Assembly: GCF_002105155.1 (NCBI RefSeq)
Contig: NW_019029001.1
Span: 558,001 to 622,000 of the forward strand
Source of the DNA: Lobosporangium transversale
Lineage: Eukaryota; Mortierellomycota; Mortierellomycetes; Mortierellales; Mortierellaceae
Length of the DNA: 64,000 nucleotides
Direction of reading: 5' to 3'
Part shown: in pieces, positions 1 through 18,640 of the stretch
Position numbering within the stretch: position 1 is the stretch's first letter
How the letters are laid out: every line of letters starts with the position of its first letter
Notes under the pieces: model-generated
The model's input: only the letters and a program-made list of their open reading frames with translations
Database searches by the model: none
Told to the model about the DNA's origin: nothing
Position numbers and translations under genes: made by a program

Positions 1-2206
1 AGGAAGAAACAGGATATGGTTTAAAAACTCGACTTTATGAAAAGGCTGTCCAAAGGGGCGTCAAAGGAGATGAAGAAGAAAAAAAAGGGATGTGTGGTTG
101 CCCTTTTTTTATTCTATCATTTGTGATGAGCGGAAACGAACGTAATCTCAGTATCCTGTGGGATTGAAGATCGGGAATCAGAAACAAATGGATCTTAAGA
201 TAATGGGAATAAACAAATAATAATAATAATAATAAAAAAAAATAAAAAAAAAAACGTTGAGAAGTGTGTGTGTAAGAAATAAAGAGGATGAGGATGATTA
301 TTGAGATGGTGATGCGTTGTCGTACAAGTTGCGTGCTAATAATCAGCTCAAAGGCAGAACGGAAATATTGGGCGAGAACAGTGGAGAGGATTAGTGATGA
401 AAATGATTCGCGAGCAATGCTGTCCGAGTACAGTTGATGTTGTTAAAGATATCAAGTAGAGTAGGATGGCAATACGTGGCGTTGCAGGAGTATCAGTGAG
501 GGTGTAAGGATGTGGGAGTGTTCTGTTAGAATGAAATGGGAGAAAGAGAGAGAGAAAAGAGAAAGAAAGAGAGGATCAACCGCTAGCCCAGCCCATCGAT
601 GATGATGACTCGGTCTGCCTGTGTCAACACTGGATGAATCTTCTGTGTCTGTGTCTGTCGGTGTTCGGTCTTGATGAGATTCAATCGAGGACCAAATTTG
701 TAGTCACTCGTGAAAGAAAGAAAACCAGTTTAACATTCATTTCATTCGTTATTCAATAAATACAGATGTATTGTATATATTTCTTTAATTATCGTTCGTT
801 TAAATGTTTGTGCTGTTATTATTGTTATTATTTATGTGTCTTCGTTTGCTTTTCAAAAGTCTTCTATCTCTGTGGATCTTCTAGTCTAGTCATGCTTGCA
901 TCCAATTCTTTTTCTGATCTTTATAATTCCTTTTCATCGCTGCGCCCGAATGAATAACAATTTTTTTAAAAAAAAAAAAAAAAAAAAAAACTTGGTTGTT
1001 GGGTATATTTTGCTTTTTTTTTTTTTTTTTTGTTTTTATAGAAACATAATCATCTTTTCTCCTTTCCCACACTTTTTTTTATTTTTTATTTTTTATTTTG
1101 CCTTTCGAGAGTTTGTATAACATTCTTTGGATAAAACTCTTTCTCTGATTTTTTTTTTTTTTATTCCAAATTGTGGAGCAAAGAAATTAATGGCAATGCT
1201 GAAACATGGTATCTCTTTTTTTTTTTTTCTTGTCATCTTCATCTGCCACGGGCCACTGAAACATCCAACTTTTCATTGAAAGATATTTAGTACAACGGGC
1301 TTGTCCGACTTTTAAAGATCTTCTGTTCATGAATAATGGAAATGCATTGACAGATTATTACGAGAGAAGAGTGGCAATCTCAAAACTTCATTGACATTGA
1401 CACATCAAATAAACATGTGGACCGACATGCATATGTCCGTCAAGTAAAGTATATAAAATGACGAATGTTTGTAACCTAGATTTTTTTTTATTTTTTCATG
1501 CGGACGCCTTGTTCGGGCAGTTCCCTTTTATGGAGCTTGCTCTCCTTAGACTGCTCATACAACCCCTCGTCTATGGAACTGTTTCCTCCATGGCCATGGT
1601 GGCTTCAATTTAGATCATAAGGGAGAACCCTTGAATTGAATCTATCAACCATTATCTCTTTTTTACTTTTCTTCCCTATTCTTTGTATTCAAATGATTTA
1701 TACTTGTGTCTGTTCTGCATTCCAAATTTTAGTAAGACATCATGGTACTGAAAAAAAAAAGCTTATCCCGATGGACAGAAATTTTGAGTGAATATATTTT
1801 TACCCCAGATAAAATAATGATAACGACGTCCCATAAGTCTTGTTATGGCTCAGAGAAAAAAAAAGGAACTACTAATCTCCCAGGACAAGATAGTTTTGAA
1901 TGAAGAAAGAGAATGAGGTATTAAAATAAACCACGCGAGAAAATATTGTGCCTGAGAGAAACGTTAGTTCCCGATCAAAAACAAGGTTCAACAACAGTCG
2001 AGATGGATCCATGTTGACAGGATTGGCAGTCTCGAATAAAGAAGAAGTAAAAAAGACAAAGCCCTTGAACAACCAAACTTTCTTCATTAATCATAAGTTC
2101 CTGCATTATGGATCTTTATGACAAAGTACATAGTATTCAACCAATCTCGTGGCAAAGTCAACTTGTCGATCTGCAATAGTCATTTTAAACAGAGGTAATA
2201 GTATAT
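1..2206. other. Gene-free AT-rich left flank
   Basis: No coding region can be supported on either strand. The stretch has A and T runs (for example 968-990 and 1013-1031), purine-rich patches around 540-580, and only short open frames made of homopolymer codons. It may include promoter or UTR of a gene beyond the left edge, but nothing visible shows that. Confidence 0.5.
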
Positions 2207-2371
<165 letters not shown>

Positions 2372-2806
2372 GTGTTGAGTAATTGAAAGGATATTTTTGT
2401 GTCCGATCAGATCTTCCTCTCCACGTCTTTACGTCTTGAACAAACTCGTCAGCTTTATTAATCGCGTACTTGTTAAATCATCCTACACGTCTACACACGT
2501 ACTGCATTCACGAAAATCAATGCAAAACCTCCTTTCTCACCCCAACAACAACAACTCAGCATCATGGAATTATTCGTGCTCTTTTTTTCTCTCTCTCCTT
2601 CTCTCTCTTTATTTTATTTTTTCGTCCATCTCTTTTGCATGTTTCTCCCTCATTAACCTTCATCTAATCCTTACCCTGTCTATCCCGAAGATGTGCAGTC
2701 CTTTTAGTCCATTCTAGACTACTTGGGTATTTGGCATTAGTAGGGCCTCAGGCACAGATTCAAAATGAATTGTTTGACCAAAGAGGAAATGCCGAGCTGC
2801 CCATCG

Positions 2807-2992
2807 TATCGGGCCTTTAATTTTTTTTAAGTCACACACCATGTTCACGTCCGAAAACATGATTATAATTTTTTAATCTAAAAACGATGATTAAATTGAC
2901 TTGGTGACAGACTTTTTTACAAACTAAATTGGTGCCAATCTGTATTCATTCAACAAATGTTGCGGGGTCGTGCCCAATTGAAACGGGCTATA
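2807..2992. mobile_element. Diverged MITE-like element, copy 1
   Basis: This 186-base non-coding element starts TATCGGGCC and ends GGGCTATA. Its interior carries TTTTTAATCTAAAAACGATG (2869-2888). The same block occurs on the opposite strand in the element at 3710-3899, followed in both by similar GATTRAATTG and TTGGTGCCAAT-type sequence. The ends resemble those of the second copy, but this copy is decayed and its terminal inverted repeat is poor. The TA-rich ends suggest a Tc1/mariner or pogo-type non-autonomous element. The class is inferred. Confidence 0.6.
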
Positions 2993-3709
2993 TTTATACA
3001 CATATGGCTCCCTTGTTGCGCGTCAACAAGTGAAAGGTAGGGGGTGAGTAACCCTAAATATTATAAGAGCAGCACCTTTTATACTTCCTTACTTTCAGTT
3101 GGACTTGCTCCCATACATTCAGAGTGTCCACAAGCCAGGACAATAGATTCAGCAGACTTAGGCTTAAATGTCAAGCACATGATTGTCTGGTATCCAGGGT
3201 GTCCCAAAGGGCAGGAACATTATGATTCTATTGAATAAAATCAAAATAAATAAGTGACACATCCAGATGTATGTGGATAAATATATACAGTAGTCCCCAT
3301 GTTGACATCTTGAGTATATAAAGTTTACAATCAGTTTTTTTTTTTTTTTTTTTTTTTTTTGCGGAGTCTCTCACAATTCGAGGTCTAGTCCCAAATGTAA
3401 TCAGAACTGAACAACTGATATATATGTCTATACATAGGACCTGGACACTTGATGATGTTAAACTGGACCTGTTTATAAGGTATTGTACCGAAGTTAGACC
3501 GCTGTACATGCTCATACATAGGAGATTTCTACGCGTATGTGTAGTTCTTGGTATCTCCTTGTGATTGCGCCACCAATATGGGATTATTCAGTCAGTCACG
3601 TGGAAAGTCGGCACAGAAATATTTAAAGTTCACAAGATTCACAGTCTGATCATGTCATGGGGTTTAGACTCTGGAGGTATTCCATCAACTTGCATACGTA
3701 TATAAAATA
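2993..3709. other. Spacer between the two MITE copies, no gene seen
   Basis: There is a 26-base T run at 3335-3360. Neither strand has a convincing coding region. The open frames at 3044-3238 (+) and 3228-3515 (-) resemble no family I know and lack splice support. Confidence 0.4.
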
Positions 3710-3899
3710 TATAGCCCGTTTCATTTGGTCATGATACCTTATATTTTTTGAATACTTTCGAGTGTATTGGCAGCCAATTGGCTCGCTTGTTGCGAGTATT
3801 GTTGCAAGTCCGTCACGTAGTGAAATGCCACCAGAACAATTCAATCATCGTTTTTAGATTAAAAATATAAGGTATCATGACCAAATGAAATTGGCGATA
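3710..3899. mobile_element. MITE with about 40-bp terminal inverted repeats, copy 2
   Basis: A 190-base element. The left arm (3710-3748) and the reverse complement of the right arm (3861-3899) share a perfect block of about 30 bases beginning TTTCATTTGGTCATGATACC. The outermost bases are TATAGCCCG against TATCGCCAA. Flanking DNA is TA-rich, so a TA target duplication is possible but cannot be proven here. There is no coding capacity. The core matches the element at 2807-2992 in inverted orientation, so this is a dispersed family and not a chance hairpin. Confidence 0.75.
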
Positions 3900-5061
3900 T
3901 ATGTATATAGTGTAAAAATATACATTACACATATACCTCCGCGACTTTTCCCGTGTTCATCAATGTTTATCTGTGTTTGTAGGCTCATCTAACAAATCTA
4001 ACATGTATAAACATGAATAATATATTTTTATGTGTACATACTGCATAACTGGTCAGAGATAGTATATATAAATATATATATAAACACATCTCTATATATA
4101 TAAATATTTATACAAATAAACACCTATACTTTTGTTACATTCCAGAGATGGGCGAAGCATTTATTGGATTGACAGCTAGTAAGACCTTCATCGTATAAAT
4201 AGGATCCTTTTGCTCACTATTTCCTTTAAAGAAAAAAAGAAAAAAAAAATAGTTAGCGATAGCTCGCTATTCTCTTGCTTTGAACCAACTATAAATTAAG
4301 AAAATTGATTGAAATAGAATGGGCCTAGTGCTTAGTACGTTCCCTTGAGATACAAAGTCTGGATGCTGGAATGAATAACATTTCTAGTACGAGGCTTTTC
4401 ATTTTTGTATCTCTTTTTTTTTATTGAGTGTCATATAGTTTCATTGTAGTGAAATTCTATTAGGACTTGAATGATGCCGAGGGAGGTCGGACAAAAAAAA
4501 AAAAAGTTACATCTAAGTTTCCTTTTCTTTTACATCAGCTACTCCTAAACTTTCATTTTCGCACCATGCAGCGATAGCTTTTTTTTTTTATAAATTTCTG
4601 CTTGCCCTAAATAGAATAAGAGAGCAGAAAAAAAAAAAAAAAAAAAAAAAAGAGCAGGCATTATTGGTAGGACAGGAATTGGTATGCATCTCGATCTTGA
4701 AGCGCGATTCGTTGCATGTAGACTCATTTACTTGCCCTGCTTGCTCTCCTCCCCCTAATGACCCCTCTCTCATCTTTTTTGCAAGAAGTATGGGGATGCT
4801 AGTGAGCATCCAATAGGCCTCTGTATTCTGGCTCTTCTACATTTTTCATGTCTATACACCCTTTTTCTTTTTCTTACCATCGCTCTCCCTGTTTCTCTTT
4901 CTCTTCTTTTCTTTCTTTCTTCCACTCTTTTTTTTTTTTTTTTTTTTTTTCTTCGTTTCACTTTACATCACCACCACTCCAATATTTAAATACCCCCACT
5001 TCTTTAATATTTAAACCCATCTTCTTCATTTACTCTATTAACACCCCATCTCATCTTCATA
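3900..5061. other. Intergenic DNA and upstream region of alpha-tubulin 1
   Basis: AT-rich, with (TA)n-like patches at about 4060-4110, an A run at 4629-4651 and a T run at 4929-4951. The last 100 bases are a C/T-rich strand with two AATATTTAAA-like motifs before the tubulin ATG, typical of a fungal promoter or leader. No gene is seen. Confidence 0.4.
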
Positions 5062-6737
5062 ATGCGTGAAATTGTCTCACTACATATCGGTCAGGTAAAA
5101 TAACGCTTTATTTGATTGTTTAAAAGAAAAAAGGAAGGAAAGGAAGGAAATTAAGAAAGGCGTTCTCAGACTGACATTTTTATTATTATTATTATTATTA
5201 TTTGTTTTTTTTTCCTTTATAGGCCGGAATTCAGATCGGAAATGCATGCTGGGAACTTTACTGTCTTGAACATGGCATTGCACCTGATGGCACCAGGTAA
5301 TTTAAAAGAAAGGAAAAAAAAAAATCCTGTATTACCACACTGTTGATGGTTACACCAAGAGAAAGAAAGCGCGACTGAGATGAATCTCATCCTTCATTAG
5401 AAACGCGGACGCACCCGAGTCCACCCCTGGTACCTTCTTTGCCGAGGGAAGCAATGGAAAATTTGTCCCACGAACTGGTAAGGTCTTTGCTACTATCTCA
5501 AATCCTAAAAAAAAAGAAAAAGGAAAAACAATGTCTCAACAATTTTTTTTTTTCTTTTTTCTTTTTTCTTTTCATTTTTGGGATAGTCCTTGTGGATCTT
5601 GAAGAGACAGTAGTAGACGAGGTTCGCAATGGCAGGTACAAGAACCTGTTCCATCCAGAATCCCTCATCTCCCATCGTGAGGATGCTTCCAACAACTACG
5701 CTCGTGGCCATTACACTATCGGCAAAGAGTTGATTGATCCCGTCATGGACAGAATTCGTAAAGTTACCGACAACTGTAGTGGTCTTCAGGGTTTCATTCT
5801 TTTCCATTCCTTCGGTGGTGGTACGGGTTCAGGTCTTGGCGCACTCTTACTTGAGCGTCTTGCCCTAGACTATGGTAAAAAAGCTAAACTCGAATTCGCT
5901 GTTTACCCTGCTCCTCGTATTGCCACCTCTGTGGTGGAGCCCTATAACTCCGTCTTGACCACACATGCGACCTTGGATCAAGCAGATTGTACATTCATGG
6001 TCGATAACGAAGCCATCTATGAGATCTGTCGTCAGAAATTGAACGTGGAACGTCCTAATTATACAAACCTCAACCGAATGATTGCCCAGGTGGTCTCTTC
6101 AATCACACTCTCTTTGCGATTCCCTGGCTCCTTGAACGTGGACATGAACGAGTTCCAGACTAATTTGGTGCCCTTCCCCCGTATCCATTTCCCTTTGATC
6201 TCCTATGCCCCCATCCTGTCTAAAGGCAAGGCGCTCCATGAACAATCTTCGGTCAGCGAGATTACTGCAGCTTGTTTTGAACGATCCAGTCAGATGGTCA
6301 ACTGTGATGCTCGTCTGGGCAAATATATGGCTTGCTGTCTCTTGTACCGTGGAGATGTCATTCCCAAGGATGTGACCAGTGCCATCAATACTATCAAGAC
6401 CAAGAGTTCAATTCAGTTTGTAGATTGGTGCCCTACTGGCTTCAAGGTCGGCATTAATCAACAACAGGCAGCAGTTGTCCCTGAAAGTGAAGTCGCTGCT
6501 GCTACCCGATCCGTCTGTATGCTCAGTAACACCACCTCTATCGCCACTGCCTGGACACAATTGGACCGAAAGTTTGATCTCATGTATGCAAAACGTGCTT
6601 TCGTGCACTGGTATGTCGGAGAGGGTATGGAAGAAGGCGAGTTCTCAGAGGCGCGTGAGGATCTCGCTGCTCTGGAGAAGGATTACGCAGAGGTTTCAGG
6701 TGATGGTGCAGCAGAAGTTGAACATGACGAGTACTAA
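5062..6737 (+). CDS. Alpha-tubulin, divergent paralog
   Basis: Alpha-tubulin pairs with beta-tubulin to build microtubules. Exons are 5062-5094, 5223-5296, 5401-5477 and 5587-6737, giving 444 residues (the usual length is about 450). The N-terminus [11 protein letters not shown], the nucleotide-binding GGGTGSG (residues about 138-144), the catalytic-loop Glu in NEFQTNLVP and the C-terminal [11 protein letters not shown] with a terminal EY are all present. The loop after strand S1 is rewritten: the second copy has NVASDKKA where this one has TRNADAPE, so the acetylatable Lys40 is absent, and [12 protein letters not shown] is replaced by [12 protein letters not shown]. Many substitutions against the copy at 20853 suggest a specialised isotype. 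The frame is intact, so it is probably expressed. The first two introns sit at the same positions and phases as in the other copy. Confidence 0.93.
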
Positions 6738-16642: not shown

Positions 16643-16759
16643 AGAGAGAGAGAGAGAAGCGTGGGTTTATTTACCAAGACGCGGCTCAATGGCATAGTTG
16701 CGGGTAACAGCAGCTGCATGGAGCACGCTAGCTTCCCTTGGAGTAAGGCGAGGATCCAT
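14254..16759 (-). CDS. VMA2: Vacuolar H+-ATPase subunit B
   Basis: Subunit B is the non-catalytic partner of subunit A in the soluble V1 head of the proton pump that acidifies vacuoles. Exons are 16759-16675, 16504-16449, 16365-16267, 15990-15819, 15726-15587, 15484-15010, 14931-14614 and 14456-14254, giving 515 residues, normal for the family. Motifs in order are [57 protein letters not shown], the B-subunit block [92 protein letters not shown] and ending with an acidic EEDEGDDDN. As expected for B, there is no Walker A P-loop. All eight exons join in phase. Confidence 0.95.
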
Positions 16760-17716
16760 TTAGTTTTTTATTTACTTTTACAGGAATTTGAGAGATGGGC
16801 GTTAAATGAAGAGGAACTGAATGAAAATAATGTGAAAGGGGTCAATTGCGCGTTCGAGCTTGGTGTCGTGGTGGAGGAAAGAGGAGACAGCCAACATCTC
16901 CATAGTTTAAAATCTGTCAAACTTAAGGGTCAGTTGATCAGTAGCCAATTCCTCACGTCATTGAAAAAGGTGATGCCGCTTTATTGATTGATATTCATTC
17001 AGCAATAACAACAAAAACAGCGCTGGACCATCAAGTTTTACAAATGAATATAACCTTGACCCAAAAACAAAGAAGCCTGCTGATTTATTATTACTTTTTA
17101 CAGCTTGTTGAACACCCCTCACTGCCATTGTATGAATTACATTTTTCAGATCTGCCACTGGGACTTGTATACCCTTCATTGTACATACACAGCCTCCTTT
17201 ACCCCTGATTTGGACGGACTTAGCTCTACGTACACATATCAAAAACCTTGCAGAGCACCAGCATTGAGTATTGGTAGACATTAACGGATGATCGATGACT
17301 CAGGGCCCCGGGGATCTTGATCACCAGCCTCCTTAAAACCGTGGGACACAGAAGACCTGGCAGAGACAAGGCGGAGATCAGCCCAACGGGGCGCCAGTCC
17401 ATGAGTATCATGTCTCCAGGAGGCGCGAAGGTTCATCTTAGGAGGACTAACCATCGAGGCCTTGATGCCACGACATACTTGCAAGAATATGTTCTTCGCG
17501 ATGGGTACAAACGGATGGACTCCGACTACAACACTCAGGTTACAAGATGAAAGAGCTTTTGGCAGTACGCTTTAGGAGACTTTGGAAAGAAGCGATACCA
17601 TTACCTCTGACTCAACTGTAGATGGCACAAGCTATTTTCTCACAGAAATACAAAATGTAGTGAAAACGAAGGAAGATGCCTCACAGCTCTGGGGATGTGA
17701 GGCCAAATATATCAAG
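16760..17716. other. VMA2 upstream region and unassigned decayed DNA
   Basis: The first 200 bases should contain the VMA2 promoter. From about 17290 to 17560 base composition is more balanced and the plus strand has coding-like but broken frames (for example GLDATTYLQEYVLRDGY at 17460-17510). This could be the N-terminal part of the Fanzor-like relic that follows, but I cannot match it to a known domain. Confidence 0.35.
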
Positions 17717-18640
17717 GTACTTAGCTTGGATCTAGGCAAACGTATATAGTTGGCGCATATGCCATTCTCCCGGAGACGAGCTCTGGCCCTGCTGATGCTG
17801 TCTGACAAGTCAGTTCACTCGCCACTGCATTCTACCTCCTTACTGCTGCTCTTCCTACTGCTGCAGCTCAGTCCTCAGCAACCACCACCGCTACATCGTT
17901 AGTATCGTCTTCATCGTCGATCCAAGTGCCTGCACCCAAGGCTTATTGTGATCTGGTAGTTAAGGCAAAGGCGGTTTATTAATCCACGCTAAAATCCTGC
18001 TGATGGCTGCAGCAACAAAACCGCGCAGTGCCAGAAGGAGCCAACCGACCTGTTGAGGATATCGAGATTAACATGTCTGCTCTTCGTGGCAATATACGGT
18101 CTTTGTGAGCTACACTGGGTATCTGAAGGACCGTGAGGAGCAACTCCAGCAGTTTTAAGGAAGAACCTTCAAGGAGTACTAATGGGACTGCCAAAGAGTT
18201 AGAATTGAAGGGTTCGCGGCGACCCCCGACCAGCTTCTTCAGATGATTGGAGGCAGTATTGGACAGAAGTGACAGCTAGACAACCATATAGTCATTACCA
18301 TAAAGCTAGGCCACTTCGCCTCTCAAAACCAACTTTCCGGCCCCAGGGGACATTTTTGGTGTACTTTATTACAGAGTAGGTATTCTTGCTCAAGCGATCC
18401 CGAGGTTTGTTTTATATGCAACAGGTTGCTGATATTTATTAAAGCTTCCTGGACTCAGGTTTGTGCACTAGGATATCTGTCTTGGGAGTGAATGAGTATC
18501 ACATTTCTAAAAAGTTTCGTGGGTGTAAGAACTTTGTAGGGAAGATTATGACTGTCCAACGTGTCACACGCGTCTTCATCGAGATGTTCTTGCGGCTGAG
18601 AACTGATCCCGTGAAAGAGATCTAGTGAAATTGACAATTG
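17717..18640 (+). pseudogene. TnpB/Fanzor-like RNA-guided nuclease family relic
   Basis: Broken plus-strand blocks fit the RuvC-type nuclease family of TnpB and its eukaryotic relatives (Fanzor). VLSLDLGKR (17717-17743) matches the RuvC-I strand with its Asp. After a frame change comes VGAYAILPETSSGPADAV. A long block from 18119 has REEQLQQF, WDCQRVR, LLQMIGGSIGQK and LGHFASQNQLSG, interrupted by three stops in the same frame. GVNEYHISKKF follows at about 18485, with the RuvC-II-like Glu at 18494-18496 and one zinc-ribbon Cys nearby. CPTCHTRLHRDVLAAEN then gives the second Cys pair and the RuvC-III-like Asp (18583-18585). Stops and frameshifts show it is not functional. Assignment is from recalled family motifs, and the guide-RNA side cannot be judged here. 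Confidence 0.7.

Follow-up and report, generated by a model that had tools for sequence, protein, structure and literature searches.

Organization of the locus

The window analyzed here is a stretch of 64,000 nucleotides of the Lobosporangium transversale genome and corresponds to C44:558001-622000 in the assembly of 42.7 Mb and 127 contigs that was used for all searches of the organism's own genome. An NCBI protein of L. transversale (P0115) matches contig C69 of this assembly at 100, 99, and 95% over three stretches. Named by eye from their translations, the neighboring genes in the window are presumably those for V-ATPase B (minus strand, start near 16759), a thioesterase-like protein and alpha-tubulin. 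Only about 280 to 300 bp separate the V-ATPase B start codon from the remnant of a mobile element, which lies upstream of it (window 16759-17057), in the likely promoter region of this gene. The main part of this remnant is a decayed TnpB/Fanzor-like gene on the plus strand (17299-18603), which is distributed over three frames and contains stops as well as a probable intron remnant. The following features were assigned:

17057-17194, minus strand: left end of a MULE transposon with the tail of a transposase frame (alignment to the left end of the C59 element)
17299-18603, plus strand: pseudogene of a TnpB/Fanzor-like half in three frames (paralogs, DNA match, fold of a relative)
17717-17743, plus strand: RuvC-I motif VLSLDLGKR with the catalytic Asp kept (translation and paralog alignment)
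17749-17802, plus strand: peptide VGAYAILPETSSGPADAV (translation)
18156-18272, plus strand: three gene-breaking stops in one frame (18156 TAA, 18180 TAA, 18270 TGA)
18234-18269, plus strand: peptide LLQMIGGSIGQK (translation)
18377-18458, plus strand: probable remnant of the last intron, 5′ of the SLGY..NEY block (position of the paralog intron between SFQSYF and ARSLGY)
18485-18517, plus strand: GVNEYHISKKF, whose Glu occupies the RuvC-II position (paralogs: GVNEYYTSKK)
18550-18603, plus strand: CPTCHTRLHRDVLAAEN, second half of the zinc ribbon and RuvC-III Asp (translation; Pfam TNB match of the read-through)

An earlier note, made from the sequence alone, had listed five peptides in this order on the plus strand and three stops of one frame around 18155-18280, and all of them were located at the positions given above. 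The extent proposed in that note (17717-18640) encloses all peptides, but homology begins at about 17299 and not at 17717. All three RuvC residues (D, E, D) are kept in the window copy, albeit in broken frames. The acceptor of the intron remnant, read by eye, is ctcag, and the stops at 18377 and 18440 probably lie inside this remnant. No known structured RNA reached the gathering score between 16500 and 19500, and ARAGORN, run with the bacterial code, reported no tRNAs.

Family assignment of the relic

For homology searches a read-through query of 449 residues was composed of nine frame pieces, with X at the breaks. Against the own genome this query yielded 62 rows at E ≤ 10, six of which represent the window copy itself; paralogs on other contigs were matched on C49 (E 1.1e-56) and C13 (1.1e-21). 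Two metagenome proteins were matched as well (2.7e-34 and 5.2e-25). Among Pfam families, the read-through matched PF07282 (Cas12f1-like TNB domain) with an E-value of 3.4e-4 and a score of 21.2, which is below the curated cut-off of 26.3. Across paralogs and relatives the scores for this zinc ribbon were 41.7, 29.7, 34.7, and 33.8, all above this cut-off, the values of 41.7 and 29.7 belonging to two paralogs from the own genome. At the DNA level, 17483-18603 and the C49 copy share 73.7% identity across 1143 columns; the C49 copy is the closest relative of the window copy and is broken as well. The differences between the two comprise, as unpolarized counts, 104 transitions with A/T in the window vs. 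62 with G/C; an excess of CpA as left by RIP-like C-to-T changes was absent from the young pair C13/C59. Among 11 aligned proteins, the RuvC catalytic residues of the relatives are kept as D in 10 of 10, E in 6 of 6, and D in 6 of 7 sequences having a letter at the respective position. The NCBIfam model NF040570 for prokaryotic guided TnpB (threshold 100) gave scores of only 20.6 for the gene model P0125 and 21.2 for the last exon of the C46 copy, and no match for P0122.

Structure models of middling confidence (pLDDT 67.8 and 58.5) were compared with solved structures using Foldseek. The Fanzor-like half of a relative had Fanzor1 ranked first, with low TM-scores to Fanzor (0.25/0.40), so that the structural prediction agrees with the family named in the earlier note. 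Sequence comparisons with solved structures were less informative: P0002 had no match among PDB sequences at E ≤ 10, profile A5 none at 0.01, and the 11 chains listed for the last exon of the C46 copy included no TnpB or Fanzor by name.

That the peptide blocks belong to another family or arose by chance might be suspected from the four single frame pieces, none of which matched a Pfam family on its own, and from the read-through staying below the PF07282 cut-off. The relic is nevertheless not a product of chance, since the read-through matches paralogs, a metagenome protein, and PF07282; together with the DNA identity to the C49 copy, the TNB scores and the Fanzor1 folds, these paralog matches leave this explanation with a negligible probability, and it was rejected. 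A phage or virus origin was rejected likewise: window DNA had no match among phage records (near mode), and P0002 gave a single pattern-matching stretch in IMG/VR, none being confirmed.

The carrier element and its deletion in the window

Immediately upstream of the TnpB-like part, local alignment of window 17057-17194 to the left end of the C59 element reached a score of 86, compared with 34 for the best of 500 shuffles. The transposase tail in this segment is identical at 14 of 26 positions (E 1e-6 in a single comparison), and the outer terminal repeat probably begins near 17041. A right end was not found in the window, as 144 of 500 shuffles scored equally high. Two whole elements of about 7.1-7.2 kb each are present at C13:669015-676171 and C59:204306-211437. 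They are about 97% identical (93.6-98.4% across four blocks), and their likeness stops at the terminal repeats, which in C13 read GGGTGTAGCGCAATCTTGGCCC on the left and GAGTACAGCACAATCTTGGCCC (reverse complement) on the right. Both are bordered by target duplications of 8-9 bp, namely TTTAAAACG on both sides in C13 and CATGTGTG in C59, with an extra G on one side. In the whole elements the MULE transposase pieces lie on one strand and the nuclease gene on the opposite one. The first 2.8 kb of the C59 element (minus strand) contain, arranged as in a Mutator transposase, matches to FAR1 (E 0.0016), MULE (1.8e-4), and SWIM (2.7e-7); in terms of Pfam scores and cut-offs SWIM passes (30.4/19.6), MULE (22.3/27.6) and FAR1 (19.6/28.1) fall below, and the frame is broken. 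The assignment of the relic to a transposon family in the earlier note is thus borne out by sister copies with MULE ends, transposase pieces, and target-site duplications.

Compared with the C13 element, the window runs from the left end and transposase tail straight into the TnpB part, and about 5.4 kb (positions about 140 to 5560) are missing. Because the MULE left end sits just upstream, the relic can be regarded as an internally deleted transposon copy. Taken alone, it is an ordinary dead transposon that itself does nothing. Two further arrangements were seen in the same genome. At C45:412k (L044) a copy is likewise internally deleted, with the left 250 bp of the element followed directly by the TnpB part. 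At C79:170.8k (L043:2843-3066) a second left end seemingly adjoins the C79 copy directly at its right end, an arrangement pointing to tandem or nested elements.

An XPG-like nuclease upstream of the TnpB-like part

In the C13 copy, the sequence upstream of the TnpB part on the same strand matched the XPG I-region with a score of 25.3 (Pfam cut-off 24.9), and the gene model P0132 reached 28.5. The scores were below the cut-off in P0121, P0123, P0125, and P0126 as well as in a young family of copies (13.9); among full-length models in which the domain was matched at all, this holds for five of six. In the Foldseek comparison of the predicted structures, the half other than the Fanzor-like one had EXO1 ranked first (1.2e-7), and the 50 structure rows listed for this XPG half are EXO1, FEN1, XPG/Rad2, GEN1, or complexes containing one of these. 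Seven acidic positions, which we take to be those of the FEN1 active site, carry the Rad2 active-site acids in 9 of 9, 9 of 10, 5 of 5, 4 of 5, 7 of 7, 7 of 7, and 10 of 10 proteins having a letter there (11 proteins in total). A search with the XPG exon against all PDB sequences gave seven sequences at E ≤ 1, none of them Fanzor.

The young family occupies C84:813.5k, C46:461k, and C51:460.7k (L067, L068, L069) and 12 further places, and its XPG exon of 341 aa is 97-100% identical in 15 copies. Searching the own genome with this exon yielded 93 rows, which merge into 74 loci. TnpB-like loci were pooled from 40 rows of the read-through search and the rows of a second TnpB search, giving 95; all counts given here are lower bounds, as the search scores best candidates only. 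In 56 of the 74 XPG-like loci the 5 kb downstream include a TnpB-like locus of the same strand, compared with 0.44 pairs expected by chance, and none of the remaining 18 shows another close arrangement. Counted from the TnpB side, a listed XPG locus lies upstream of 55 of the 95 loci and is missing for 40; among the latter, C69:236617 and C85:21296 find their partner through a search with the N-terminal piece of the C69 copy, and others appear to be fragments or shortened. The search with the C69 piece itself returned 14 rows at E ≤ 1, eight of which precede TnpB-like copies by no more than about 4 kb, these eight including the query's own locus and one row at E 0.08. A downstream TnpB part accompanies every one of the 15 long young XPG copies, 14 of which have 341 aa and one 322.

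A probable single fused gene

The junction of the two parts was read in the DNA of several copies. In C13 and C59 the XPG frame continues up to AG|GTAATG, with CTAAT or CTAAC and then CAATAG further on, and joining at these sites preserves the frame in phase 2; the young family (C84, C46) shows the corresponding order AG|GTAAGC ... CTAAC ... TTAG, which is likewise in frame and of phase 2. A phase-2 intron joining both parts is therefore common to two subfamilies. The C69 copy has kept the donor GTAATG, with no clear acceptor found, and the C79 copy has a GC donor at the junction. When three young copies were spliced in silico, one was open over 1209 aa through the XPG part, linker, RuvC, and zinc ribbon, the tail seeming to be shifted in frame within low-complexity sequence. 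The other two have early stops in exon 2 and are open to 594 and 370 aa. The XPG part of the C13 and C59 copies is broken. The earlier note had predicted intact copies elsewhere in the genome, and this applies to one of three young copies, which is open through both domains, but the other two are broken and the family belongs to another subfamily than the relic. Judging by this one copy, the fusion family appears to be still open-framed. In a selection test the three young copies, which hold too few changes, gave pN/pS values of 0.10-0.51 for the XPG part and 0.59-1.17 for RuvC.

Both parts are also found in NCBI gene models of other Mortierellomycota, namely P0121 (Linnemannia elongata, 1334 aa), P0122 (Dissophora ornata, 1289 aa), P0123 and P0125 (Mortierella alpina, 1329 and 1030 aa), and P0124 (L. 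hyalina, 1216 aa). P0125 has kept every checked position. Gaps occur in other models: P0121 is without most of its zinc ribbon, the RuvC-III Asp is missing from P0123, P0122 and P0124 have lost segments of the XPG I-region, and the RuvC core is lacking in P0132 (M. alpina, 1034 aa). A search with A1 gave 190 matches, of which the best 120 were listed, and one with A3, in which best candidates are scored, gave at least 24. The matches listed name 29 organisms from 10 genera, all of which we take to be Mortierellaceae, and many matches are unnamed. As judged from sequence, the FEN1/EXO1-Fanzor family thus appears to be common in this genome and to be present in gene models of related fungi, and the gene models together with the splice sites read in the DNA point to one fused XPG-Fanzor protein.

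Most probably, the feature in the window represents a dead copy, with an internal deletion, of a Mutator-like DNA transposon whose intact type carries MULE pieces and, on the opposite strand, a spliced Rad2/XPG-Fanzor1-like gene, this estimate applying to identity and architecture jointly. The earlier note had named the family correctly but recognized neither the MULE carrier nor the deletion of about 5.4 kb, nor the FEN1/EXO1-like part at the N-terminus.

Occurrence of the probable fusion gene in other elements

The young copies C84 and C46 are 96.4% identical over 5967 columns. The ends of the young family, GTATAGCCCGTTCCATT, are unlike the MULE ends, with TATA at both borders in two copies, and in the C46 copy no frame longer than 91 aa was seen ahead of the XPG exon. 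Since this family has other ends and keeps the same fusion, the XPG part appears to be linked with Fanzor and not with MULE. The different ends and the lack of an upstream frame >91 aa in C46 further suggest that the fusion gene moves from one transposon type to another. A second young XPG family, with an open frame of 349 aa that is about 31% identical to the first, is present at C2:824.7k, C14:13.7k, C37:557.9k, C66:90k, C69:248.8k, C73:864k, and other places, at many of which TnpB-like pieces then follow.

Comparison with known systems

The Fanzor-like half resembles Fanzor1 (Spizellomyces SpuFz, Parasitella PpFz, Guillardia GtFz) in the RuvC D-E-D residues, with the Glu located just before the zinc ribbon. 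It further shares the TNB zinc ribbon, the fold, and the residence in eukaryotic transposons described for Fanzor1 (PMC3627910). The extra N-terminal Rad2/XPG-like nuclease sets it apart from Fanzor1. This half, in turn, has the fold and the active-site acids of the Rad2/XPG family (EXO1, FEN1, XPG) but is fused to a Fanzor-like protein and borne by a transposon.

Bao and Jurka (2013; PMC3627910) described Fanzor1 in three elements from Mucorales that have MuDR-like ends and no MuDR transposase, and portrayed Fanzor1 as traveling between transposon types. The elements reported here share with them the placement of a Fanzor gene inside Mutator-type terminal repeats, target duplications of about 9 bp, and the origin from early-diverging fungi, but in contrast to those elements they contain MuDR transposase pieces. 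The word XPG is absent from the text of that study. MULE-Mucorales (2019 MULE survey, PMC6446971) is similar in being a SWIM-type MULE of Mucoromycota with target duplications of about 10 bp, whereas neither Fanzor nor XPG is mentioned in the main text of that survey. Term searches in passages of PMC10432273 (2023, Nature), PMC10711439 (2023, NAR), PMC11423790 (2024, Cell, structural study), and PMC6446971 found no such fusion, and no report of a FEN1/EXO1-Fanzor fusion was among the literature matches listed. The fusion of a Rad2-type nuclease to Fanzor may be new, although it could already be included in the supplement of a survey.

Possible mode of action and alternative explanations

Cuts made by TnpB and Fanzor at donor sites are thought to aid the retention of their elements, and the resection of 5′ ends by EXO1 feeds homologous repair. 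In an intact copy, the Fanzor part, guided by an RNA derived from the element, might cut a site or allele without the element; the attached 5′ nuclease would resect or trim the cut ends, and repair would thereby be steered to homologous copying, which would restore the element. We consider such RNA-guided cutting and resection by intact copies a tentative proposal, with the odds rather against it. The RNA guidance is assumed by analogy, from kinship with Fanzor1. Folding of five 3′ ends gave z-values of −2.1, −0.7, −1.8, −0.6, and 0.6 and thus no signal of a guide RNA at these ends. The final 73 nt of the C13 copy (L052:2016-2088, minus strand) form a long imperfect hairpin that ends at the terminus, and the C79 counterpart folds alike; this hairpin could serve the transposase or a guide RNA.

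Part of the doubt concerns the fusion itself and the role of its XPG half. The XPG-like and TnpB-like parts might be two neighboring, separately transcribed genes that were merged by gene callers, given that the support for the fusion comes from gene models and splice sites read in DNA, that some NCBI entries have one part only (e.g., P0136, a PIN domain-like protein of 621 aa), and that Met codons are found just before the linker in the C13 and C69 copies. The in-frame phase-2 junction intron in two subfamilies, the young copy that is open through both parts after splicing, and the gene models of several species with both parts speak against this, and we consider it unlikely, the least probable of the alternatives discussed in this section. 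Only slightly more weight can be given to an XPG part that is a non-catalytic DNA- or RNA-binding module in a protein acting as an ordinary Fanzor; the weak Pfam scores and the absence of parts of the I-region from several gene models would fit this, but the seven Rad2 acids are largely kept where sequence is present and are readable in the young copy.

Rad2-family enzymes cut flaps, and the fusion could accordingly be real with an XPG part that trims flaps or gaps during MULE excision and insertion, the Fanzor part being a separate retention device. The C13 and C59 elements carrying both systems would be compatible with such a role, but the young family keeps the same fusion with other ends and without an upstream frame >91 aa in C46. 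This explanation appears somewhat more plausible than the two preceding ones, though still improbable, and we rank it behind the cut-and-resect proposal.

Implications

The relic in the window serves as a pointer to the FEN1/EXO1-Fanzor fusion family. It also places a Fanzor gene inside an element with MULE transposase sequence, a combination that the survey of Bao and Jurka (2013; PMC3627910) did not report for its MuDR-like Fanzor elements. It is conceivable, at about the same low level of confidence as the cut-and-resect proposal, that Mortierellomycota transposons carry a self-contained RNA-guided homing enzyme that would combine a Fanzor1 cut with its own resection of the EXO1/FEN1 type and would have been moved between transposon types. 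As to how a Fanzor benefits its own transposon, the in-frame fusion with an end-processing nuclease, as present in gene models of several species, provides a direct clue (cut, then resect). The fusion thus offers an enzyme that can be tested and that would, if the proposal is true, represent a natural cut-and-resect fusion.
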